From positions 1 to 39,963 of the forward strand of contig JAGCMB010000051.1 in assembly GCA_017646665.1 (NCBI GenBank): 39,963 nt of DNA, read 5' to 3'. The translations under genes and the position numbers were made by a program. Numbering within the stretch: position 1 is the first letter of the stretch; each line of letters starts with the position of its first letter. The DNA comes from Bacteroidaceae bacterium. GTDB taxonomy: Bacteria > Bacteroidota > Bacteroidia > Bacteroidales > Bacteroidaceae. Under the pieces are notes generated by a model. The model was not told where the DNA came from and ran no database searches. It saw only the letters and a program-made list of their open reading frames with translations. Shown here one piece after another: positions 13,470 to 39,039 of the stretch.

Positions 13470-14588
13470 ATGCAAACAAAGGAAACAACAAACGGCAACA
13501 AGGCCCACGCGCCACTCATCGAGCTTTTCTTCAGCCTCATCAGGTGTGGCATAGGAAAGCAGAATACCCTCCCCCGCACACCCGACGCCGAGGAGTGGCA
13601 CGAGTTGTTCCAGATTTCCCAGAAACAGACATTGGCAGGCATAACCTTTGCCGGCATCGAGCATCTTCCACAAGAGCAACGCCCGCCTAAAGAGATACTG
13701 TTCAAATGGCATCAGCTATGCAGTGTCATTAGAAAAAAGAATGCCGAGCTCAACAAAAAAAGCGCAATTGTAGCAAGCAAATTCAACAGCGAAGGATTTC
13801 CCAACTGCATCTTAAAAGGACAGGGATTGGCGCAGCTATACCCCGACCCCACCCTGCGCACACCCGGCGATATTGACATCTGGCTCGAAGGGGGTTGCAA
13901 AGAAATCATTAGATACGTAAAGAGCTGCACCCCACAAAGCAGCCCAACATACCACCACATAGACTTCCCGATAGCACCGGGATTTGACATTGAAGCACAT
14001 TTCACCCCATCGTGGATGTACAGTCCGATAAAAAACAGACGCCTGCAAAAATTCTTTGCAAGCAACGCCAAGCAACAGTTCAGCAACACAACGCAAACCC
14101 CCGAAGGCAGTTTCCCGGCGCCATCCATAACATTCAACAGAATATATGTACTGCTGCACATATACCGCCACCTATTTCAGGAAGGCATCGGGCTACGACA
14201 ACTGCTCGACTATTATTTCATACTCGACAAAGGCTTCACAAAAGCAGAAGAAAAAGAGTACCTTCAGACGCTGCGAGCATTGGGATTGAGAAATTTTGCT
14301 GCAGCTACAACATATATACTAATGGAAAAATTCGGGCTTCACAGCGACAAATGCCCAGTAATGCCCAACAAGAAAAGAGGAGAATTTCTGTTGAACGAAA
14401 TAATGACTGCCGGAAATTTCGGCAGATACGACAGCCGTTACAACATCGTATCCAAAGACAACGAGTTCAAGCATTTCCTCAACAGCATGCAGCGCATAGT
14501 GCGCCTCACCGCCCAGTACCCGAGTGAAACACTTTGGAGTCCATACTTCAAGATATGGCACTACATTTGGCGAAAGCGCCACCAATAG
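13470..14588 (+). CDS. Nucleotidyltransferase-fold family protein (uncharacterised)
   Basis: The 372-residue protein has the signature of the uncharacterised nucleotidyltransferase family common in polysaccharide clusters: LKGQGLAQLYP (115-125) followed by a GDIDIW motif (133-138) that supplies two metal-binding aspartates, and a later DIEAHF strand that could give the third. No signal peptide or membrane helix is present. These proteins are widespread beside sugar-nucleotide genes, but their substrate is not established to my knowledge. It lies 13 bp after ugd and 57 bp before wecB, so all three are probably one transcript. Confidence 0.75.
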   Translation: MQTKETTNGNKAHAPLIELFFSLIRCGIGKQNTLPRTPDAEEWHELFQISQKQTLAGITFAGIEHLPQEQRPPKEILFKWHQLCSVIRKKNAELNKKSAIVASKFNSEGFPNCILKGQGLAQLYPDPTLRTPGDIDIWLEGGCKEIIRYVKSCTPQSSPTYHHIDFPIAPGFDIEAHFTPSWMYSPIKNRRLQKFFASNAKQQFSNTTQTPEGSFPAPSITFNRIYVLLHIYRHLFQEGIGLRQLLDYYFILDKGFTKAEEKEYLQTLRALGLRNFAAATTYILMEKFGLHSDKCPVMPNKKRGEFLLNEIMTAGNFGRYDSRYNIVSKDNEFKHFLNSMQRIVRLTAQYPSETLWSPYFKIWHYIWRKRHQ

Positions 14589-14645
14589 CAAATAAAGAAT
14601 TGTAAACAAATTTCAACAAAATAACACTTTTTAAAATACATAATA

Positions 14646-15800
14646 ATGAAAACAGTAATGCTTATATTCGGTACCAGACCCGAAGCCATCAAAATGGCAC
14701 CCCTGGTCAAGGAGTTTCAAAAACACCCCGAAGCATTCAAGACAATCGTTTGCGTAACAGGCCAGCATCGTCAGATGCTCGACCAAGTTCTGCAACTATT
14801 CGAAATAATCCCCGATTACGACCTCAATATAATGAAGCAGGGACAAGACCTCTATGACGTCACCGCACGCGTGCTCACAGGAATGCGCGACGTACTCAAA
14901 GAGGCTCTCCCCGACATCGTGCTCGTACACGGCGACACCACCACAAGCACAGCCGCAGCCCTCGCCGCATTCTACCAGCAGATACCGGTGGGACACATTG
15001 AGGCAGGACTACGCACACACAACATATATAGTCCCTGGCCCGAGGAGATGAACCGCCAGATAACAGGCCGCATCGCAACCTACAACTTTGCCCCAACCCC
15101 ATTAAGCAAGGCAAACCTTTTGCGCGAGGCCGTAAACGAGGAGAGCATCAACGTAACAGGCAACACCGTCATTGATGCACTCTATTGGGTTGTAGACCGA
15201 ATCAAAAAAGACAACACACTCGACAGCGAGCTCAAAAAACTGCTGTCACAAGCCGGCTATGACATCAACCGCCTCTCAGACGGCAAAAAGCTGGTACTCA
15301 TTACCGGTCATCGCCGCGAGAACTTCGGCGACGGTTTCATCAATATGTGCACAGCAATCAAAGACCTCACCATCAAATACCCCGATGTCGACTTCGTCTA
15401 CCCGATGCACCTCAACCCCAACGTACGCAAGCCAATCCACGAGGTATTCGGAGAGGATTTGAGCAACCTCAACAACATATTCTTCATTGAGCCACTCGAA
15501 TACCTGTCATTCGTCTACCTAATGGAAAAGAGCACCATCGTACTCACCGACAGTGGCGGCATACAGGAAGAGGCTCCCGGCCTTGGCAAGCCCGTACTCG
15601 TTATGCGCGACACCACCGAACGCCCCGAGGCACTTGAAGCCGGCACTGTAAAACTAGTAGGCACAAACTACGACAAAATCGTCAACGAAGTATCCGCGTT
15701 GCTCGACAACAAAGAACACTACGACGCAATGAGCAAAGCCGTGAACCCATACGGCGACGGCCTGGCTTGCAGCAGAATAGTAGAAGCCCTAAAGGGATAA
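14646..15800 (+). CDS. wecB: UDP-N-acetylglucosamine 2-epimerase (non-hydrolysing)
   Basis: The 384-residue protein has all hallmarks of WecB/MnaA, which interconverts UDP-GlcNAc and UDP-ManNAc: FGTRPEAIKMAPLV at the start, HGDTTTS, HIEAGLRT, WPEEMNRQ, ITGHRRENFGDG and the C-terminal SGGIQEEAPGLGKP with RDTTERPEAL. The acidic residues and histidine known to be needed in E. coli WecB fall in these motifs. It would feed the WecG/TagA-type transferase that begins the next block (16236-17006), although a hairpin terminator lies between them. Confidence 0.95.
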   Translation: MKTVMLIFGTRPEAIKMAPLVKEFQKHPEAFKTIVCVTGQHRQMLDQVLQLFEIIPDYDLNIMKQGQDLYDVTARVLTGMRDVLKEALPDIVLVHGDTTTSTAAALAAFYQQIPVGHIEAGLRTHNIYSPWPEEMNRQITGRIATYNFAPTPLSKANLLREAVNEESINVTGNTVIDALYWVVDRIKKDNTLDSELKKLLSQAGYDINRLSDGKKLVLITGHRRENFGDGFINMCTAIKDLTIKYPDVDFVYPMHLNPNVRKPIHEVFGEDLSNLNNIFFIEPLEYLSFVYLMEKSTIVLTDSGGIQEEAPGLGKPVLVMRDTTERPEALEAGTVKLVGTNYDKIVNEVSALLDNKEHYDAMSKAVNPYGDGLACSRIVEALKG

Positions 15801-15921
15801 AACAAAGACTTTGCAACGCTCACTATTTGTAATAACTTTTCAAAACCTTAAACAATAACAGACTACCGATTGTAAAAGTTAATATTTGTTAAACAAAAGA
15901 ACAAACAGACCTCCAAAGTAT

Positions 15922-16017
15922 TATATTTGCAAAGAAAAACCGATATATCACCACCATGGTATATATATAAAAAAGCAGAAGACGTTAGGCGCAATCGCGC
16001 CTAACGTCATTTTATTT
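15922..16017 (+). ncRNA. Candidate small RNA or attenuated leader between wecB and wecG
   Basis: TATATTTG (15922-15929) matches the -7 consensus and would start RNA near 15936. The strong hairpin at 15981-16008 followed by ATTTTATTT would end it about 75 nt later. The next gene has its own better promoter downstream (16084-16114). A tiny frame (ATG at 15956, four codons) lies inside. No -33 box is seen, so the -7 match could be chance. The rest of the 435-bp gap 15801-16235 shows only these elements. Confidence 0.25.
15981..16017 (+). terminator. Intrinsic terminator downstream of wecB
   Basis: A perfect 12-bp GC-rich stem (15981-15992 with 15997-16008), loop AATC, is followed by ATTTTATTT. 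It lies 180 bp after the wecB stop and closes the first block. Confidence 0.8.
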
Positions 16018-16083
16018 CCAAAGAAAAAAGCAAACCTCTGAACGCATCATCAAAGCCACAAAAGAGATACAACCGCAAATAAA

Positions 16084-16114
16084 TTTGCTTTTTAATAATA
16101 AATTATTAACTTTG
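16084..16114 (+). promoter_or_regulatory. Consensus promoter for the second polysaccharide block
   Basis: TTTG (16084-16087), 19 bp, TAACTTTG (16107-16114) is a full match to the Bacteroidetes -33/-7 pattern. The leader to the ATG at 16236 is about 115 nt and A-rich. Confidence 0.7.
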
Positions 16115-16235
16115 CAAGAAATAGCTTACATCTACCTAAAGACGCAGAAAAACACAGCAACAGAAACCGTCCACACCATAGGGAACAAGCACTTAAAAAC
16201 ACACAAGCAAACCGTTCAACAAAACACAACAAGCA

Positions 16236-17006
16236 ATGAACTCGCAACAAAAATACAGGATAGGCAAAGTCTACATTTCGCGTACCACTCCCCAAAACAC
16301 CATAGCCAACATCAAACAGGCTATCAACGAGGGACGCAACGAGTATATCTGCGTATCCAACGTGCGCACTACGGCGTTCGCCAATAAAAAAGCGAACAAG
16401 GAGTACCGCGACATTATGAACAACGCCTATATGTGTACCCCAGACGGAATGCCACTTGTGTGGATGGCTCGCTTGTGGGGGCTAAAGGACGTTCAGCGCA
16501 CCGTTGGCCCCGACCTCTTCACAACAATGCTCAACGACAAGAAAAGCGACATAAAGCATTTCCTTTTGGGTGACACCGAAGAAACGCTTGCACAAATGAA
16601 GGAGAAATACGCCACAGAAGGCGCCAGCATCGTAGGGAGCTACTCTCCCCCATTCTGCAAACTCGACAACTTTGACTACGCCGGCATTGCAAAACGAATC
16701 AACGACAGCGGTGCAGACATAGTGTGGCTATCACTACGCGCTCCCAAACAAGATTTCTTTGCCGTGCGCCTGCTACCATTCCTTGACAAAAAGATATGCA
16801 TTGGCGTTGGCGCGGCATTTCGTTTCTCGTTAGGACAGATAAAACACCCTCCAAAGATTTTCAAGAAGTTGGGCCTCACGGGACTGTTCTGGAGAAAAAT
16901 GAACCTAACTAAAATCATTTGGTATTTCCATCACTTTGCATTGCTGTGCAAATGGGCTTGCGGAATACTATCATCAAGGCTAATAGGAAAGAAATACCAC
17001 CAATAG
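16236..17006 (+). CDS. WecG/TagA/CpsF family glycosyltransferase
   Basis: The 256-residue protein matches the GT26 family. Visible motifs are YICVSNVRTTAFANKKA, the central TPDGMPLVWMARLWG with the catalytic-type Asp, RTVGPDLF, and the later ADIVWLSLRAPKQDFF and GVGAAFRFSLG. WecG transfers ManNAcA and TagA transfers ManNAc onto a lipid-linked GlcNAc at the inner membrane face. With wecB just upstream, ManNAc from UDP-ManNAc is the likeliest donor here, which is inference. No membrane helix is obvious, but the C-terminus is basic and hydrophobic, fitting membrane association. The next gene starts 10 bp downstream. Confidence 0.88.
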   Translation: MNSQQKYRIGKVYISRTTPQNTIANIKQAINEGRNEYICVSNVRTTAFANKKANKEYRDIMNNAYMCTPDGMPLVWMARLWGLKDVQRTVGPDLFTTMLNDKKSDIKHFLLGDTEETLAQMKEKYATEGASIVGSYSPPFCKLDNFDYAGIAKRINDSGADIVWLSLRAPKQDFFAVRLLPFLDKKICIGVGAAFRFSLGQIKHPPKIFKKLGLTGLFWRKMNLTKIIWYFHHFALLCKWACGILSSRLIGKKYHQ

Positions 17007-21116: not shown

Positions 21117-22334
21117 ATGGCATCAAAGAAGAAACAGGTAATAATGTTATATGTGTCATCACTGGCGGGTGTTGCAATAGGAATGCTCAGTTCAGTGATT
21201 AACACCAATGCTCTCATTCCCGAGCAATACGGTGATTTCAGATATATACAGAATATCATTTCATTCATTTCCAGCCTACTGCTATTCGGTTATTTCACAT
21301 CGGGCAGCAGGTTGCTGGCACTTTCGAAAGACGAGGAATACAGTCGCCGCATACGAGGTGTCATGTGTACGATATTGGGCTGTGCGCAATTGGTTTTGAT
21401 GCTGTCAATGCTTGTCCTATATTTTGTCAGTGACAGCAACAATGAGAATATAGCCCCGTTGTTCCTGGCAGCATTACCAGTGTGTGGAAATGTAATAATG
21501 CTAAATTACATAAACACCACAGCGCAAGGCGATAACCATATTGGCAGAATTTCAATGGCAAGGCTATTGCCAACATTCATTTACGTCATTGCGGCCTATT
21601 TTATATACCAAGAGTTCAGTGCAACCCCAATGCTAATGTTGGTATTGCATAATGGTATTGCGGCTGCAATATTATTAAGCATCATTATTTCTACAAAGCC
21701 AAAATTCAAGGACCTCAGAGGCTCATTCAAAATACTTAATGAAGAAAACAAGAAGTATGGTTTTAATGTATATATTGGTTCGCTGACGGCTGTTTCTACT
21801 GGATATATCGCAGGTATCACCTTGGGTATATTTTGTAAAGACAATACAGAAGTCGGTTTCTACACTCTCGGACTCACATTGTCCGGTCCATTGGCAATGT
21901 TGCCTTCCATAATAGGTACAACATATTACAAGAAATTTGCCAACGAAAGCAGAATAAGCAAGAAGGTAATGCAATCATCAATATTGATAACAATCATTAG
22001 CCTTTTTGCATTCATTCTACTCATTGACTTCGTTGTGGACTTCCTTTACAACGACAGCTACTCACAAGTAAGCAACATCGCAATATGGCTTGCAGCAGCA
22101 GTAAGCATTCACGGTTTCGGAGATATGCTGAACCGCTTTCTTGGAGCACACGGCAAAGGAAAGGAATTACGCAACGCAGCATTTATATGTGGTGGAATAT
22201 TGATTATCGGTAATATTCTATTTGTATACTTGTGGGGAATTACCGGTGCCGTCATTACTAAAATCGCAAGTTCAGCCGGTTACTTTTTTACTTTGTTATA
22301 CTATTATTTAAGTTATACTAAAACAAATAAATGA
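21117..22334 (+). CDS. Wzx-type oligosaccharide flippase
   Basis: The 405-residue protein is hydrophobic throughout, with about 12 predicted membrane segments beginning at VIMLYVSSLAGVAIGML, the layout of the MATE-like polysaccharide transporter family. The early LIPEQYGDFRYIQNIISFISSLLLFG is the usual family signature after the first helix. Wzx proteins flip undecaprenyl-linked repeat units to the periplasm, where Wzy polymerises them; a Wzy candidate lies at 22957-24216. It overlaps the next gene by four bases (ATGA). Exact substrate cannot be told from sequence. Confidence 0.85.
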   Translation: MASKKKQVIMLYVSSLAGVAIGMLSSVINTNALIPEQYGDFRYIQNIISFISSLLLFGYFTSGSRLLALSKDEEYSRRIRGVMCTILGCAQLVLMLSMLVLYFVSDSNNENIAPLFLAALPVCGNVIMLNYINTTAQGDNHIGRISMARLLPTFIYVIAAYFIYQEFSATPMLMLVLHNGIAAAILLSIIISTKPKFKDLRGSFKILNEENKKYGFNVYIGSLTAVSTGYIAGITLGIFCKDNTEVGFYTLGLTLSGPLAMLPSIIGTTYYKKFANESRISKKVMQSSILITIISLFAFILLIDFVVDFLYNDSYSQVSNIAIWLAAAVSIHGFGDMLNRFLGAHGKGKELRNAAFICGGILIIGNILFVYLWGITGAVITKIASSAGYFFTLLYYYLSYTKTNK

Positions 22335-28732: not shown

Positions 28733-30079
28733 ATGAAGAAGGTAATCACATACGGAACATATGACCTTTTACATCAGGGCCACATCAATCTTCTTCGCCG
28801 AGCAAAAGAACTTGGCGACTATCTTATTGTAGGTGTCACCAACGACAACTTCGACCGTGAACGTGGCAAGCTCAATGTCTGCAACAACGTGCTTGAGCGT
28901 GTTGAGGCAGTCAAGGCAACCAGCCTTGCCGACCAGATAATTATAGAAGACTATTTTGGCCAGAAGATTGATGACATTCAAAAGTATGATGTTGACATTT
29001 TTGCCATTGGCAGCGATTGGCAGGGTAAGTTCGACTACCTGAATGAATATTGTAAAGTTGTTTACTTACCACGTACAGAGGGAATTTCTTCGACAATGCT
29101 GCGCGAAGAGAAGCAGACATCAATCAAGGTGGGTGTTGTAGGCTGTGGCAACATCGCCAGGCGCTTTGTCCCCGAAGCAGACTTTGTCAATGGGATAGAA
29201 ATCGTTGGAGCATACGACAATGACAGTGCAGTACTCAACGAGTTTGTAAACATCAACAGCCTGCAGAGTCCATACGCATCATTTGAAGATTTGCTCACCG
29301 ATGTAGATGCCGTTTACGTTGCCACTCCACACCTTAGTCATTACACATACTGCAAACAGGCTCTGCTTGCAAAAAAACACGTATTGTGCGAAATACCGCT
29401 TGTGCTTGAAAAGGCGCAAGCCGAAGAATTGTATAAATTGGCCGAGGAGCAGGGTGTGATACTTATGGAAGCAAACAAAACCGCCCACTGCCCGGCATTC
29501 AACCACCTTATGGTGATGATAAAAAGTGGAGCCATCGGTGAGGTTGTTGACATTGAAGCATCACTCTCGCGTCTATTGCCCGACAAGACTCGTCGCGAAT
29601 TTGACCCTGCACAAGCCGGTGGTTCAATGTACGAATCGGTAGTATATCCACTATTGCCAATATTCCGTATATTAGGAACAGACTACAAAAACCTGAACAT
29701 ATATTCCCGAATGGAAAATGGTGTTGACATATACACAAAGGGAGTATTACGCTACCCTACAGCTGTATGTTCATTCAAACTTGGATTGGGCGTAAAGACC
29801 GAGGGAAACCTTGTTATTTCCGGAACAAAGGGATATGCCTATGTCCCAGCCCCCTGGTGGAAGACCGACTATTTTGAACTGCGTTATGAAGACCAGAACC
29901 AAAACAAGAAGTATTTCTACAAGTGGGATGGCGATGGTTTGCGTTATGAAATACAGGAGTGGATGTCGTGCATCATAAACAAGCGCTTCAGTAGCGCACG
30001 CCTACGCAGAAGGGAAAGCATAGCCATGACAGGTGTTATGCAACAGTTTACCGAACGTAAAAACTTCATGGAGATATGA
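28733..30079 (+). CDS. Fusion: TagD-type cytidylyltransferase + Gfo/Idh/MocA oxidoreductase
   Basis: The 448-residue protein joins two enzymes. Residues 1-125 are a glycerol-3-phosphate-type cytidylyltransferase with GTYDLLHQGH (HxGH, 14-17), VTNDNFDRERGK, AIGSDWQGKF and RTEGISST (114-121), which couples CTP to a polyol phosphate. From about 131 a Gfo/Idh/MocA oxidoreductase begins with the Rossmann GVVGCGNIA (134-142), DAVYVATPHLSHY and LMEANKTAHCPAF. The usual EKP motif reads E-I-P (220-222), so the conserved lysine is replaced by isoleucine. Together with the downstream SDR gene (ATGA overlap) this suggests synthesis of a CDP-polyol by reduction plus cytidylyl transfer, probably used by the LicD protein at 33511. 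The exact polyol is unknown. This gene is less A/T-rich than those before it. Confidence 0.88.
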   Translation: MKKVITYGTYDLLHQGHINLLRRAKELGDYLIVGVTNDNFDRERGKLNVCNNVLERVEAVKATSLADQIIIEDYFGQKIDDIQKYDVDIFAIGSDWQGKFDYLNEYCKVVYLPRTEGISSTMLREEKQTSIKVGVVGCGNIARRFVPEADFVNGIEIVGAYDNDSAVLNEFVNINSLQSPYASFEDLLTDVDAVYVATPHLSHYTYCKQALLAKKHVLCEIPLVLEKAQAEELYKLAEEQGVILMEANKTAHCPAFNHLMVMIKSGAIGEVVDIEASLSRLLPDKTRREFDPAQAGGSMYESVVYPLLPIFRILGTDYKNLNIYSRMENGVDIYTKGVLRYPTAVCSFKLGLGVKTEGNLVISGTKGYAYVPAPWWKTDYFELRYEDQNQNKKYFYKWDGDGLRYEIQEWMSCIINKRFSSARLRRRESIAMTGVMQQFTERKNFMEI

Positions 30080-30816
30080 GAAGAGCATTGATTGTTGGTG
30101 GTGCTAATGGGATAGGACTTTCTATTGCAACTAGTCTTGCTAAACGCGAAGAGTTTGAAAAGATATATATTGTTGACAAGACGGTCATCGATAATGAGAA
30201 TTGCAATCCCAAATTCGAATATCATCAGTTCGATCTTACAAATAGTGACTATTCCTTATTCGACCGGTTTAATGACATAGACACTTTGATGATAACAGCA
30301 GGCTTTGGCAAACTTGCACTGTTCAAGGAAATTAACGAGAAACATATCATTGATTCTATGAACGTGAATGCCACTGCTGTAATGCGTTTGATACATCACT
30401 TTTACGGCAAGATAATGAGCAATACCGATTTTTATTGCGGTGTAATGGTGAGTATTGCCGGGTTTATGTCATCACCATTCTTTTCTGTTTATGCTGCAAG
30501 CAAAGCTGCGCTCAAGATATTCATTGAGAGCGTAAATATTGAACTGGAAAAAGAAGGTACCAGCAATCGTATTCTTAATGTTTCGCCCGGAGCAATCAAA
30601 GGCACAAGTTTCAATCATGGAAAAACAGACTTGGAACAGACAGCAACATTAGCACGTAATATAATTAAGAACCTTGAAAAGAAGAACGACTTATTCATCC
30701 CTCAATATGACGAGATATACAAGAATGTCTTGGCTCGCTATCAACAAGATTTTCGTCAAGAAGGAAGACATAGTTATGAATACAAACTCACAAGATACAC
30801 CAAGCAAGAACAATAG
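30076..30816 (+). CDS. Short-chain dehydrogenase/reductase
   Basis: The 246-residue SDR has the cofactor motif GGANGIG (8-14), an acidic D after the second strand (IVDKT, favouring NAD), MITAGFGK in place of NNAG, and the catalytic Ser and Tyr-x3-Lys in VSIAGFMSS...YAASKAALKIF, followed by NVSPGAIKGTSF. It is coupled by a 4-bp overlap to the cytidylyltransferase fusion, so it most likely oxidises or reduces the same polyol phosphate or its CDP form. The block ends here with a strong bidirectional hairpin. Confidence 0.87.
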   Translation: MRRALIVGGANGIGLSIATSLAKREEFEKIYIVDKTVIDNENCNPKFEYHQFDLTNSDYSLFDRFNDIDTLMITAGFGKLALFKEINEKHIIDSMNVNATAVMRLIHHFYGKIMSNTDFYCGVMVSIAGFMSSPFFSVYAASKAALKIFIESVNIELEKEGTSNRILNVSPGAIKGTSFNHGKTDLEQTATLARNIIKNLEKKNDLFIPQYDEIYKNVLARYQQDFRQEGRHSYEYKLTRYTKQEQ

Positions 30817-30830
30817 ACGCAATACATACT

Positions 30831-30873
30831 ATAAAACAGCAACAGACCGCTTAGCGGTCTGTTGCTGTTTTAT
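30831..30873. terminator. Bidirectional terminator between the SDR gene and the convergent GDPD gene
   Basis: A perfect 20-bp stem (30831-30850 with 30854-30873) with a 3-nt loop; one arm ends in TTTTAT on each strand. It lies between two convergent stop codons and probably stops both transcripts. Confidence 0.85.
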
Positions 30874-30883
30874 GTGAACAACA

Positions 30884-33277
30884 TTACTCTTTCCAACCAT
30901 TTGTTTTACTACGCCAAACAGAGCAGCTACCTGAATAATCCCAATACATTTTACCATCAGTTGTTACGCCGTCTACTTTGAATATAAAACCACTCCAAGG
31001 AGCAGTAAAAGACTCAACATCGCATCCGTTCTGCCGTATTGTTATAATCACATCATCGGTAATGGTATTACCATTAAGATTGGCAAAAACATCACGTTTA
31101 TCACCCTTCAAACTTATAAGTTTATTGAGATATTCCTCAGAATATGTATCAGCTAAAAGACCAACCCTCACTTTGTCTGAATTAGCAATAACCATTTGCA
31201 ATATCGACAAGTTGTAGCTTATGAATGTGGAGTGTTTCTCCATTCCATACAGCCTTACCAAATCAAACAACTGCTTAATCTGTTCTGCCGTTCCGTTTTT
31301 AAGTTCAATATAAGGTTTCAGTCCAAGCTGCTTGCAAAGAAGAATAAACTCTTCAAACGTAGGAATCTGCACACCTGCGTAGTCTGCTGAGAACCAAGAG
31401 CCGAAATCAAGCGCGCGTAATTCTTCAAGTGTCATAGTACCAACACTACCACTGCCGTTAGAGGTGCGGTCAACCGTATCATCGTGCAAACACACAGCAA
31501 CACCATCAGCAGTAAAACGTATATCTGTTTCAACATACCTGAATCCTTTTAATTTTGACAACTCAAATGCAGGTAAAGTGTTTTCTGGTGCTTCACCGTT
31601 GAAACCACGATGGTTAATTACCCTCATTGTAGCCAAAGCGTCGGCATCTATCGGGAGAGTCTTTTCATATCTGCGTTCACCTCCAACGATACTAACTCCA
31701 CTAAGCAAATCGAATTTTGACGAAAGAGTGCTTTCACTAACCCCGGAGAGTAAAATTTTGTAATCACCTTCGGTTACAATGGTAAATTCATTTGTTACCC
31801 AAGATTTGACATCATAAGTATTCCCAACGCGGAAACCAAGATAAGCCCTTACTCCATCAGGTAACTTAACCACATCACCAACAAAAAGATGATAGGTAAT
31901 TCCAGCCTTCATACGGACACGACTGTCTGTATTATCTTTATACGACCACCCTGTTCTGTCTATGGTGATTCCACCTATCTCAAAATCTTCGTAGTTCAGA
32001 GTGTTTGGTTTACCTAAACTTTCTGTCGCATTTTCAATAGATGTGACACGATTATTTACATTAGAAACATCTTGCCATACAGTATCTCCATCATACAATA
32101 TGGAGAAATCACTTATCTTTGAAGTAGTTGTTGCAATTCTTATATAAGTAGGATAATCATACTCCAAGGTGTATTCCACATCAGTGCTAACGCCTTGTCC
32201 TTTAACTATGTGTATTACGTTGTAATTTGTATCATATACGCAAACAAATGCATAGTTAGCGTATATACGACCTTTAACGCTGATTTTGGTTTTTGCAGGA
32301 ATATAAAAATACTTCTCGGTTGCACTACAATCTGAATGACTGGAAATGTTACCAGAGGCGTCCAATCTCTTTCCTTCGACAAAATCATCAGTAGTAGGCA
32401 ACTGGAGTAAAGTACGTGTTAAATCGTCAATCCTTGCATCTCTTGTTATATTATCCCTTACCAATGTGCCTATAGAATATTTAGACAAATTCAATATTTC
32501 TACATCGTATGCAACAGCAACACCGTTGCTTGCGATTGACATACAAAGGTATTCTCCACCATCTGCTGTACATTCATAAATAATTTCACGCGGTCCAGTT
32601 CCTTCAAGTATTCTGCCAATGCCGTCTATAACAGTATTTTCTTGATTTCTCACACTTAAATATGTTGTCGCAACATTGTCTTCTGTTAAAATCCTAAAAA
32701 GATAACTACATCCGTTCTCAAACTTATAAGCAAATTTTCTGTTTTTATAATCATCGATACTACCAGTAGTAAAATCAAATTGTGCAAGGGCCGTTCCTTT
32801 CAGTTCATTCTCAACAGCTGTTATACGGATGTTTCCTGCTTCAATCTCGTCATGGAGACCATCGGCTGTTTCAACCAAACCAGCAAGAGCAGAAATCATT
32901 TCCTCAGTAGTAGTAATATTATCAACGACATCTGTACCGACAAACGAGCTCCACTTACTCCACATCGAATTGGAGAATGTACGTGTATAAATTTTCGTAT
33001 CCTTGTTTTTACGTGAAGTAAAAGTCAACATTTGCCCAATGAGACGACTTTCTTGTCTTAACCCTTTTGTACCACTATCTGTTACCACAAGGTTTCCGAC
33101 AATATAATGCTCATTGCCACCTTGTTCAAATGGTAGCCCCACATTGGCATCAATATTTTCAATCTCTACAGTATAACTGCCGGGGTCCAACATTGTATCA
33201 AGATTGCTACCCCATTTCAACTCCGCGTCATTCTCATTCACGAATGACTTGTACCTGACTTTCATCTGTTTTTCCAT
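30884..33277 (-). CDS. Phage-tail-fibre-like protein with C-terminal glycerophosphodiester phosphodiesterase domain
   Basis: The 797-residue protein has no signal peptide. Residues about 24-112 resemble a pyocin-knob/tail-fibre domain (PGSYTVEIENID, VTDSG, TKIYTRTFSNSMWSKWSSF). A short coiled coil follows (about 120-160), then two or three beta-rich modules of the type found in phage fibres (about 165-545). Residues 551-750 are a GDPD domain: NHRGFNGEAPENTLPAF with H556/R557, VETD with E583 and D585, and LHDDTVDRTSNGSG with H598, the full catalytic and metal set. It ends YWDYSGSCSVWRSKTNGWKE. GDPD domains hydrolyse glycerophosphodiesters, and phage fibres can carry them as depolymerases. The gene is alone, opposite to its neighbours, between the CDP-polyol genes and licD. 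An ATG at 33265 is an alternative start. Confidence 0.85.
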   Translation of the reverse strand: MEKQMKVRYKSFVNENDAELKWGSNLDTMLDPGSYTVEIENIDANVGLPFEQGGNEHYIVGNLVVTDSGTKGLRQESRLIGQMLTFTSRKNKDTKIYTRTFSNSMWSKWSSFVGTDVVDNITTTEEMISALAGLVETADGLHDEIEAGNIRITAVENELKGTALAQFDFTTGSIDDYKNRKFAYKFENGCSYLFRILTEDNVATTYLSVRNQENTVIDGIGRILEGTGPREIIYECTADGGEYLCMSIASNGVAVAYDVEILNLSKYSIGTLVRDNITRDARIDDLTRTLLQLPTTDDFVEGKRLDASGNISSHSDCSATEKYFYIPAKTKISVKGRIYANYAFVCVYDTNYNVIHIVKGQGVSTDVEYTLEYDYPTYIRIATTTSKISDFSILYDGDTVWQDVSNVNNRVTSIENATESLGKPNTLNYEDFEIGGITIDRTGWSYKDNTDSRVRMKAGITYHLFVGDVVKLPDGVRAYLGFRVGNTYDVKSWVTNEFTIVTEGDYKILLSGVSESTLSSKFDLLSGVSIVGGERRYEKTLPIDADALATMRVINHRGFNGEAPENTLPAFELSKLKGFRYVETDIRFTADGVAVCLHDDTVDRTSNGSGSVGTMTLEELRALDFGSWFSADYAGVQIPTFEEFILLCKQLGLKPYIELKNGTAEQIKQLFDLVRLYGMEKHSTFISYNLSILQMVIANSDKVRVGLLADTYSEEYLNKLISLKGDKRDVFANLNGNTITDDVIITIRQNGCDVESFTAPWSGFIFKVDGVTTDGKMYWDYSGSCSVWRSKTNGWKE

Positions 33278-33288
33278 TGTTTTTTACA

Positions 33289-33296
33289 CAAAAGTA
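33289..33296 (-). promoter_or_regulatory. -7 element for the GDPD gene
   Basis: Minus-strand TACTTTTG matches TAnnTTTG, with a partial -33 (CTTG) at 33314-33317 only 17 bp away. RNA would start near 33283, giving an unusually short leader of about 6 nt (or 18 nt for the start at 33265). Confidence 0.4.
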
Positions 33297-33397
33297 TCAA
33301 CACAAGCGAATTACAAGGTTGCCAGAATAACACTATTTTATTTTTAAATACAGCTCATCCTTGCACGTAAGAATCAATTCTTTATACCCTACTAAAA

Positions 33398-33510: not shown

Positions 33511-34308
33511 ATGAAAAAAATAGATATTAACGAATGTCATAAACTACTATTGGGAATAGCAAAAGAGTTTGATGCAATATGCACCAAGCACAATATACCT
33601 TATTATATGCTTGGCGGCACAATGCTTGGCGCCATCCGCCATAAAGGTTTTATCCCTTGGGACGATGATATGGACTTTGGAGTGCCAAGAACTCAATATA
33701 TCAAACTCATTGACATATTAGAGAGAGAATTGCCTGCACCACTCAAGTGTTGCACATACACAAATTCAAAAGCTGTCAAATCGCCATTCGCAAAAATAGT
33801 TGATACTAGAACTATCATAGATGATCCAAGAATAGACCTACCTGTTGAGCAGCAGATTGGCATAAACATTGATATATTCCCGCTTGACTGTTGCGATTTG
33901 AACGACAATAAAATCAATACAATAAGAAAGTGGGAAAAATTAAGCCAGCTAGTATACATAAATCCTCCACATAAAAGTTATACAAAATTACTCATAAAGA
34001 AGATACTAAGGCTCATTTGCCCGTTTTCGCATAAATACATCTTGGACAAGATTTGTAAGTTAGCATTATCTCTTGAGAAGGGAGAATTCTTGGCAAATAT
34101 TCACGGACGATGGAAAAATAGGGAAATAATACCAGTTGAGTGGTATGGTGAATATACCAGATACGATTTTGAAGGAGTCAAATTGTGTGGTATAAAAGAG
34201 TATGACAAATACTTGTCCAAACTATACAATAATTATATGCAGCTTCCTCCTGTTGAAAAGAGAATTGCACATGTAGACAACATTTATATGAAAGACAAGG
34301 AATCATGA
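33511..34308 (+). CDS. LicD family phosphotransferase
   Basis: The 265-residue protein has the LicD hallmark: YYMLGGTMLGAIRHKGFIPWDDDMDFGVPR (about 31-60), with the DDDMD acidic metal site, then KIVDTRTII and GINIDIFPLD. LicD enzymes transfer a phospho-alcohol from a CDP-activated donor to a sugar (phosphocholine in Haemophilus and pneumococcus; the related fukutin proteins use CDP-ribitol). The window has no choline genes but does have a CDP-polyol module just upstream (28733-30816), so a polyol phosphate is the likelier group transferred. This last step is inference. Four-base overlap with the next glycosyltransferase. Confidence 0.88.
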   Translation: MKKIDINECHKLLLGIAKEFDAICTKHNIPYYMLGGTMLGAIRHKGFIPWDDDMDFGVPRTQYIKLIDILERELPAPLKCCTYTNSKAVKSPFAKIVDTRTIIDDPRIDLPVEQQIGINIDIFPLDCCDLNDNKINTIRKWEKLSQLVYINPPHKSYTKLLIKKILRLICPFSHKYILDKICKLALSLEKGEFLANIHGRWKNREIIPVEWYGEYTRYDFEGVKLCGIKEYDKYLSKLYNNYMQLPPVEKRIAHVDNIYMKDKES

Positions 34309-38931: not shown

Positions 38932-39039
38932 ATGTATAGAGTATATGGCAAGAATTGTGATGCCCGCTGTCAAATACATTGCAAATATAGATGCTTACAA
39001 AGCGGACAAGGTTGCTGTTTTGACACAATAAAGAAATAG
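38932..39039 (+). CDS. Cysteine-rich micro-ORF (35 residues, unverified)
   Basis: An ATG at 38932 opens a 35-codon frame with six cysteines in a regular pattern: C9-x3-C13-x3-C17-x3-C21-x6-C28-C29, with basic and aromatic residues between (N-terminus MYRVYGKNCDARC). It is preceded by an A-rich run (AAATAAAAAAAATTGAT), the kind of translation start context seen in this phylum. There is no signal peptide and no recognisable promoter. It may be chance or a fragment of a decayed gene. Confidence 0.25.
   Translation: MYRVYGKNCDARCQIHCKYRCLQSGQGCCFDTIKK

Follow-up and report, generated by a model that had tools for sequence, protein, structure and literature searches.

Why should a gene for a protein that resembles a phage fibre stand alone, and on the opposite strand, within a locus that builds a surface polysaccharide, and with what might its product work? 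We followed this question in a Bacteroidaceae bacterium (GenBank assembly GCA_017646665.1, contig JAGCMB010000051.1). The window, i.e., the whole stretch of DNA that was analysed, is 39,963 nucleotides long. The gene, its domains and the locus around it are as follows.

16236-38677, forward strand: biosynthesis locus for a polysaccharide (capsule or exopolysaccharide), with the fibre gene inside it
28733-30079, forward strand: fusion of a cytidylyltransferase with a GFO/IDH oxidoreductase; its best NCBIfam match, below the model's cut-off, is glycerol-3-phosphate cytidylyltransferase
30076-30816, forward strand: short-chain dehydrogenase (SDR), the last gene before the fibre gene
30884-33277, reverse strand: fibre gene, 797 aa, with a conserved N-terminal module, middle beta modules and a C-terminal GDPD
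30887-31642, reverse strand: GDPD catalytic domain and C-terminal tail, about residues 546-797, with H556, R557, E583, D585 and H598 present
32798-33277, reverse strand: conserved N-terminal module, about residues 1-160, a beta module and a long helix, common to a genus-wide family
33511-34308, forward strand: LicD-family phosphotransferase

The reading frame at 30884-33277 opens with ATG and encodes 797 residues without an internal stop, in agreement with the preliminary description, which had reported a single 797-residue gene on the opposite strand; the gene is present as a single copy in its own genome. Pfam recognized only one family in the protein, GDPD (PF03009), at residues 556-709 (E 2.6e-29; 103.5 bits versus a cut-off of 23.6), and all five residues of the catalytic set that had been called complete were found. 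The reported lack of a signal peptide was also borne out, as a simple hydropathy test detected no hydrophobic N-terminus in the 797-aa protein or in 17 relatives (0/18). The N-terminus had further been described as pyocin-knob-like, a label that sequence comparison did not confirm: Pfam returned no pyocin-knob match, and when a profile of 17 fibre N-termini was run against solved structures, only tenascin came up (E 0.079). Among PHROGs, one weak match was obtained at residues 19-123, to a family of unknown function (phrog_3971, E 5.3e-4). The AlphaFold model comprises a beta module (residues 6-116), a helix (124-160), weak beta modules and a confident GDPD barrel, with a mean pLDDT of 56.6 and values below 50 over residues 178-318 and most of 397-543. 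As modelled, the protein is fibre-like in outline, which falls short of an identification.

The relatives of this protein have a common start and different ends. Profile A1, which was built from 17 rows covering the first ~160 residues of fibre proteins, gave full or partial matches in 28 of the 44 genomes of the genus, and the profile search found no fibre of this type in the remaining 16/44. Across the order, matches were limited to 3 of 295 sampled genomes, the own genome included. A whole-protein search of 61 genomes returned two kinds of match, to the GDPD part and to the N-terminus, and the N-terminal matches all came from the same genus. When the whole protein was compared with genome contigs, 13 loci matched at residues 484-774, three of which served as alignment rows; the same comparison with viral contigs gave no relative. 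In the loci that were read, the relatives measure 316 to 1152 aa after start trimming, some of them cut by contig ends. C-termini in the family carry GDPD, GDSL esterase, DUF4886 or metallophosphoesterase domains by Pfam, together with an M14 peptidase below cut-off. Eight members share one C-terminal module in an all-against-all BLAST; it was labelled LRR-like by eye, and in the five of these members that were scanned Pfam found no match to it over cut-off. GDPD as the family-defining feature was rejected, since fibre relatives carry other C-termini and GDPD is thus a variable part. Matches elsewhere in the genus to GDPD only lie in frames of 260-333 aa, with the exception of one of 1587 aa in G016. 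Two-gene cassettes were also noticed, in which a small N-module protein stands beside a tailspike-like protein of 1131-1760 aa: L045:3240-9970 (G007), where the tailspike-like protein contains DUF4886 and GDSL, and L173:9837-14341 (G013), where it has no Pfam match.

For the counts below, 33 labelled fibre ORFs with a readable upstream region were used, 24 strong (E below 1e-25, window included) and nine weak; L174, which runs off its contig, was dropped. The weak matches were kept outside all counts of 24 as a looser class: two of the nine have polysaccharide genes within 6 kb, and none (0/9) has the promoter described below.

The position of the gene inside a capsule-type locus is clear in the window, as polysaccharide-type genes flank it on both sides. 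The locus (~16.2-38.7 kb) contains WecG-type and GT4 glycosyltransferases, a flippase, a UDP-sugar dehydrogenase, hexapeptide and acyltransferases and LicD, together with an O-antigen ligase match below cut-off. Polysaccharide genes lie close to 20 of the 24 strong fibres (window included). When the window gene is set aside, 19 of the other 23 have them within 6 kb, with just one such gene in four of these cases. The four strong fibres with no polysaccharide gene within 6 kb are L041, L161 and L162, which lie on short contigs, and L042, which does not. In 18 loci, none of 68 polysaccharide genes was on the strand of the fibre (sign test, p 3.8e-6). The same polysaccharide reference set marked only 2 of 305 ORFs in 17 other loci of the genus, a comparison that may favour the fibre loci because the set was seeded partly from them. 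It had been suggested to search other capsule loci for the same gene in the same position; related genes do occupy the same kind of place across the genus, so homologues are not confined to intact prophages. The gene was rightly kept apart from normal prophages, too, as it stands alone among sugar genes and a contiguous phage genome with an integrase is absent there.

What the enzyme might cut is suggested by its neighbours. The cytidylyltransferase of the window matches the glycerol-3-phosphate cytidylyltransferase model with E 7.7e-37, below cut-off, and LicD genes transfer phospho-groups. Because these two genes share the locus with GDPD, a phosphodiester substituent of the strain's own capsule is a plausible substrate. 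This chemical match is weakened by G023, where an 89.5% identical copy of the fused cytidylyltransferase gene adjoins a fibre gene without GDPD. The capsule-locus position and the fit of GDPD to the glycerol-phosphate-type cytidylyltransferase and LicD would also suit an enzyme, cytosolic or released on lysis, that edits the capsule of its own cell with no particle involved. We regard this as very improbable, given that hydrophobic N-termini are absent from all 18 proteins, that elsewhere in the family the attached enzymes are unrelated or no domain could be named, and that the promoter type of the gene is that of particle genes.

Three elements lie next to the gene.

30831-30873, unstranded: hairpin of 20 pairs with a loop of 3, terminator-like, between the convergent SDR and fibre genes
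33289-33321, reverse strand: promoter CAACCTT-N18-TACTTTTG, of the same type that precedes particle gene clusters on contig C28
33398-33421, unstranded: terminator-like palindrome of 24 bases (10 pairs, loop 4) with a T-rich stretch after it, in the gap from which the fibre and LicD genes diverge

The perfect hairpin and palindrome that had been said to bound the gene were recovered with 20 and 10 pairs, respectively, and terminator-like sites are enriched between 30700 and 33700 (6, versus a shuffle mean of 1.5). The box of its own that the gene had been credited with is TACTTTTG, directly upstream of the fibre ATG, which we take to be a -7 box. Upstream of fibre genes in general, the common arrangement is CAACCTT followed ~18 bases later by TANNTTTG. 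A loose form of this pattern occurs at 14 sites in the own genome versus 0 for the reversed control; several of them precede phage-type genes of contig C28, and others precede other genes or no ORF. With one mismatch allowed, the promoter was found before 15/24 fibres, 13/24 operon-first particle genes, 4/90 other genes of the particle set and 6/546 other ORFs (Fisher p 6e-16 for particle genes versus other ORFs), and nine of the 24 fibres lack it even at this stringency. With no mismatch, the corresponding counts were 9/24, 2/24, 2/90 and 1/546, and the particle-gene test (2/24 versus 1/546) gave p 0.005. As the motif was derived from the upstream regions of fibres, only the test on particle genes is independent of it. 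In 44 genomes of the genus, the fixed-spacing motif had about 135 sites versus about 45 in the reversed control, a roughly threefold excess, and the control count means that background sites exist.

The same promoter also precedes genes outside the fibre and particle sets. In the own genome these are a DUF6973 gene (C60:97041-97535; PF22322, 5.2e-19) and a gene of 349 aa (C52:8679-9728) with a homologue between capsid and TerL in G131; both (L069/L068) may belong to the same regulon and serve in lysis or as effectors. In other genomes, it stands before a TseH-like gene (L272:7425-8177, G036; PF25218, 1.1e-14) and before a GIY-YIG-like gene, below cut-off (L274:2720-3055, G015). A second strict copy in the window (38982-39013, reverse strand) has no ORF behind it, and a search behind this copy found no fibre remnant.

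The particle genes that share this promoter lie in two clusters on contig C28 of the own genome. In cluster 1, TerL shares one strand with small genes; divergent from these lie a scaffold-like gene, the capsid, the adaptor, genes of holin-like and spanin-like type and the gene of a protein of 943 aa (g943), where scaffold and spanin are names assigned by position and look. Cluster 2, which lies beyond an ATP synthase operon (Pfam), ends in a 1555-aa protein and the portal. TerL and portal were recognized among PHROGs (phrog_2, 2.6e-20, and phrog_156, 6.5e-55, respectively), and the motifs of TerL spotted by eye are, we assume, those typical of its ATPase and nuclease. Pfam-type profiles gave P22_portal 3.7e-34, SU10_adaptor 2.5e-5 and holin 0.003 (both below cut-off) and SU10_MCP 0.041, and a capsid profile matched the solved capsid 9in6_M with 1.3e-7. 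A capsid fold was not named from the structure model, which was too weak for this purpose (pLDDT 54). In a Pfam scan of 29 of the 33 listed ORFs of C28:1-30055, to which the C38 integrase was added as a control, integrase families matched a single member, as expected from the control, and no replication family was listed; some of the C28 ORFs had no match. Phage-type head and packaging genes thus lie on the chromosome in separated loci with no recognised integrase or replication genes, which is the arrangement looked for in a gene transfer agent (GTA). No capsid gene occurs near the fibre gene because the particle genes sit elsewhere on the chromosome.

The particle genes are widely conserved in the genus. 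The portal was found in 34 of 37 genomes, though incompletely in G021 and G026. For TerL the count was 36 of 37, one of which has no more than a phage-like copy of 43% identity, and a single in-frame stop interrupts TerL in G018 and likewise in G002. The median dN/dS of the portal was 0.08 (17 of 80 sampled pairs with usable dS, saturation limiting the rest), and portal distances correlated moderately with those of RpoB (Mantel r 0.54, p 1e-4, n=21). By these measures, the particle genes appear to be inherited vertically under purifying selection. The spacing of the two clusters varies: they are adjacent in G030 and G019, separated by the atp operon in G000, G020 and G014, and 107 kb apart in G002.

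An ordinary prophage could also supply the particle. The own genome carries, apart from the particle clusters, an apparently ordinary prophage on contig C38 (C38:1-22333; L067, L070), with head and tail genes recognized by eye and an integrase-like gene at 21137-22333, and the fibre might belong to it. This assignment is extremely improbable: the region has a large protein of its own in its tail part (14382-16439), its one promoter-like site differs in spacing, and the fibre family is spread over the genus.

A tail-only killing particle, such as a tailocin, is another candidate. Tailocin fibres of the R-pyocin type recognize surface sugars in a strain-specific manner, in which the fibres of the genus would resemble them. 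The fibre architecture and the capsule linkage would suit strain-specific killing of competitors, with the linkage protecting the producer, and some genes behind the same promoter are effector-like (DUF6973, TseH-like). Against this, the promoter-bearing clusters encode terminase, portal and capsid, which are foreign to tailocins; to our knowledge, tailocins are devoid of head, portal and terminase. A PHROG scan of 10 particle-cluster proteins gave no match to a sheath, tube or baseplate protein. We therefore give a tail-only particle little credence.

Since terminase, portal and capsid are all encoded in the genome and their clusters start with the same promoter type as the fibre gene, the fibre probably works with a particle that has a head and packages DNA, and whose genes lie elsewhere on the chromosome. 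On the genomic evidence, the 797-aa gene is likely to encode the receptor-binding fibre of a chromosomally encoded, GTA-like podovirus particle, relocated into the capsule locus. The preliminary description had proposed a captured receptor-binding depolymerase kept as a capsule-editing, tailocin-type or competition factor. A phage-type receptor-binding enzyme in a capsule locus, outside a prophage and with relatives placed likewise across the genus, is retained from this proposal; a tailocin or a lone capsule editor is not, because the promoter type of the fibre also heads clusters that encode terminase, portal and capsid.

Fibre and particle genes were also compared in their divergence. Distances between fibre N-termini followed portal distances when RpoB was controlled for (partial Mantel r 0.75, p 0.0003), in the small sample of 12 genomes. 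In the same 12 genomes, the fibre N-terminus did not follow RpoB when the portal was controlled for (r 0.04, p 0.36); with no control, r was 0.48 (n=15). This co-divergence would fit docking of the N-terminus on the particle.

It also bears on the possibility that the fibre genes are remnants or cargo left behind by phages recombining with capsule loci, a stock of fibres that incoming phages could draw on and that has no link to the conserved particle genes. Capsule loci are prone to recombination, the LRR-like C-terminal module occurs as well in a protein of a phage-like region of G009, and GDPD matches were found in 315 phage records. Yet the frames are open (209-1236 aa in the 24 strong members; the one in-frame stop noted in the genus search of the family is in G011), the promoter type is common to fibres and particle operons, the antiparallel placement is strict, and the N-terminus co-diverges with the portal. 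Remnants or cargo are therefore an unlikely explanation.

A receptor-binding fibre of phage type might be expected to have its gene in the structural module of related viruses. In viral contigs, portal, TerL, scaffold, capsid, adaptor and a large gene usually follow one another in this order. Among the 67 contigs given, 43 had a capsid gene, an adaptor gene and room, and in 41 of these a gene of at least 350 aa lay within 1.5 kb after the adaptor; two of the 41 are portals. Of the other 39, 25 were compared with PHROGs, which gave several tail-fibre or tail matches, although the commonest match (9/25) was to a family of unknown function. For these two reasons, we do not claim a large tail gene behind the adaptor of every virus. 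In L206, the nearest viral relative (capsid 63%), the post-adaptor gene matches a fibre profile (E 5.5e-14), with one gene in between. The protein after the adaptor also matches the fibre profile in G009:C6, G280:C40 and G071, of which G280 and G071 may be separated sets and not free phages. In these four relatives, a fibre gene thus stands within the structural module. Six loci of the genus have room after the adaptor, and there the next genes are the holin-like, spanin-like and g943 genes or small unknown ones; the particle loci gave no match to the fibre profile except for a weak one beyond TerL in L168. As g943 follows the adaptor, an empty fibre slot stays unproved. From this comparison we infer that the fibre gene was relocated from the structural module into the capsule locus. 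The fibre-type proteins of G009:C6 and of family f29 have a different N-terminus, which makes docking through the N-terminal module a guess.

The particle genes reach beyond the genus in diverged form. Among 61 genomes of the same family, of which three belong to the genus, only those of the genus gave capsid matches of at least 79%, and three others were at 22-26%. Across the order, the portal was found in 23 of 295 genomes and 12 of 184 genera. Two single-contig genomes, both from other families, have their capsid and portal genes ~46 kb (G302; L277-L279) and ~245 kb (G335; L275, L276) apart. Because of these distances, separated particle gene sets may extend beyond the genus and be widespread in the order. 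In G055 and in one copy in G178, the particle genes look contiguous.

The particle, its packaging of DNA and its target are predicted, and the parts would work together as follows. A common promoter would turn on the particle genes and the fibre together. The N-terminus of the fibre would dock on the particle, and its variable C-terminus would bind or cut surface polysaccharide. Lysis would then free particles loaded with pieces of host DNA. Since fibre gene and capsule locus are passed on together, the particles might, as a tentative suggestion, be aimed at cells with a related capsule.

Known systems offer partial parallels. In RcGTA of Rhodobacter capsulatus, according to the portions of the source available, the head-spike genes adjoin capsule genes and are co-regulated with them, and the capsule is the receptor, to which the tail fibre binds too (PMC10218006). 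The likeness, as far as these portions describe it, lies in a chromosomal phage-like particle with a receptor-binding gene beside capsule genes (PMC10218006). The fibre of the genus differs in being hypervariable, modular, often enzyme-tipped and antiparallel inside diverse capsule loci. The P22/SU10-like portal and adaptor type found here presumably also differs from that of RcGTA. The RcGTA head-spike genes beside capsule genes are a convergent precedent. FpGTA of Faecalibacterium is described, in the sections available, as split over two distant loci; receptor-binding and lysis genes belong to the second, which was undetected in some strains (PMC12946183). It resembles the present case in its gut habitat, podovirus-like type and separated loci, and differs in its Gram-positive host, in that those sections mention no capsule link, and in that particles were observed there (PMC12946183).

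Among phages, the Bacteroides phages BF1-TP2, BKO1-TP3 and BS-TP4 have portals 34-35% identical to that of the genus, and IMG/VR viral relatives resemble it in capsid and gene order. Most of the viral contigs read have contiguous head genes and a large gene after the adaptor, whereas the genus has separate clusters with no fibre-profile match. Tail proteins of phages of Staphylococcus, Lactobacillus and other hosts share the GDPD catalytic domain and are often annotated as tail or phosphodiesterase proteins. In the 40 of the 315 GDPD phage records that were listed, the match extends only from residue 460 on, with 24-41% identity and mostly Gram-positive hosts, and none of these 40 matched the N-terminal module.

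GTAs are known from few lineages. Our literature search, which covered titles and abstract openings of published papers, found none in Bacteroidales. In the parts available of a gut survey, GTAs are reported in Gram-positive families (PMC12946183). A broader possibility, which we put forward only tentatively, is a GTA lineage of probably Bacteroidales range, present in several families, in one genus of which the receptor-binding gene moved into the capsule locus, so that capsule type and particle specificity travel as one cassette. If true, a group of gut bacteria would possess a built-in DNA-exchange machine whose range of recipients is set by the very locus that sets the capsule. DNA would then reach kin that wear the same coat, and a particle that carried the cassette itself into a cell would change coat and aim together. 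How such particles choose kin, and how fast-changing capsule and receptor-binding genes stay matched, would thereby become testable questions.
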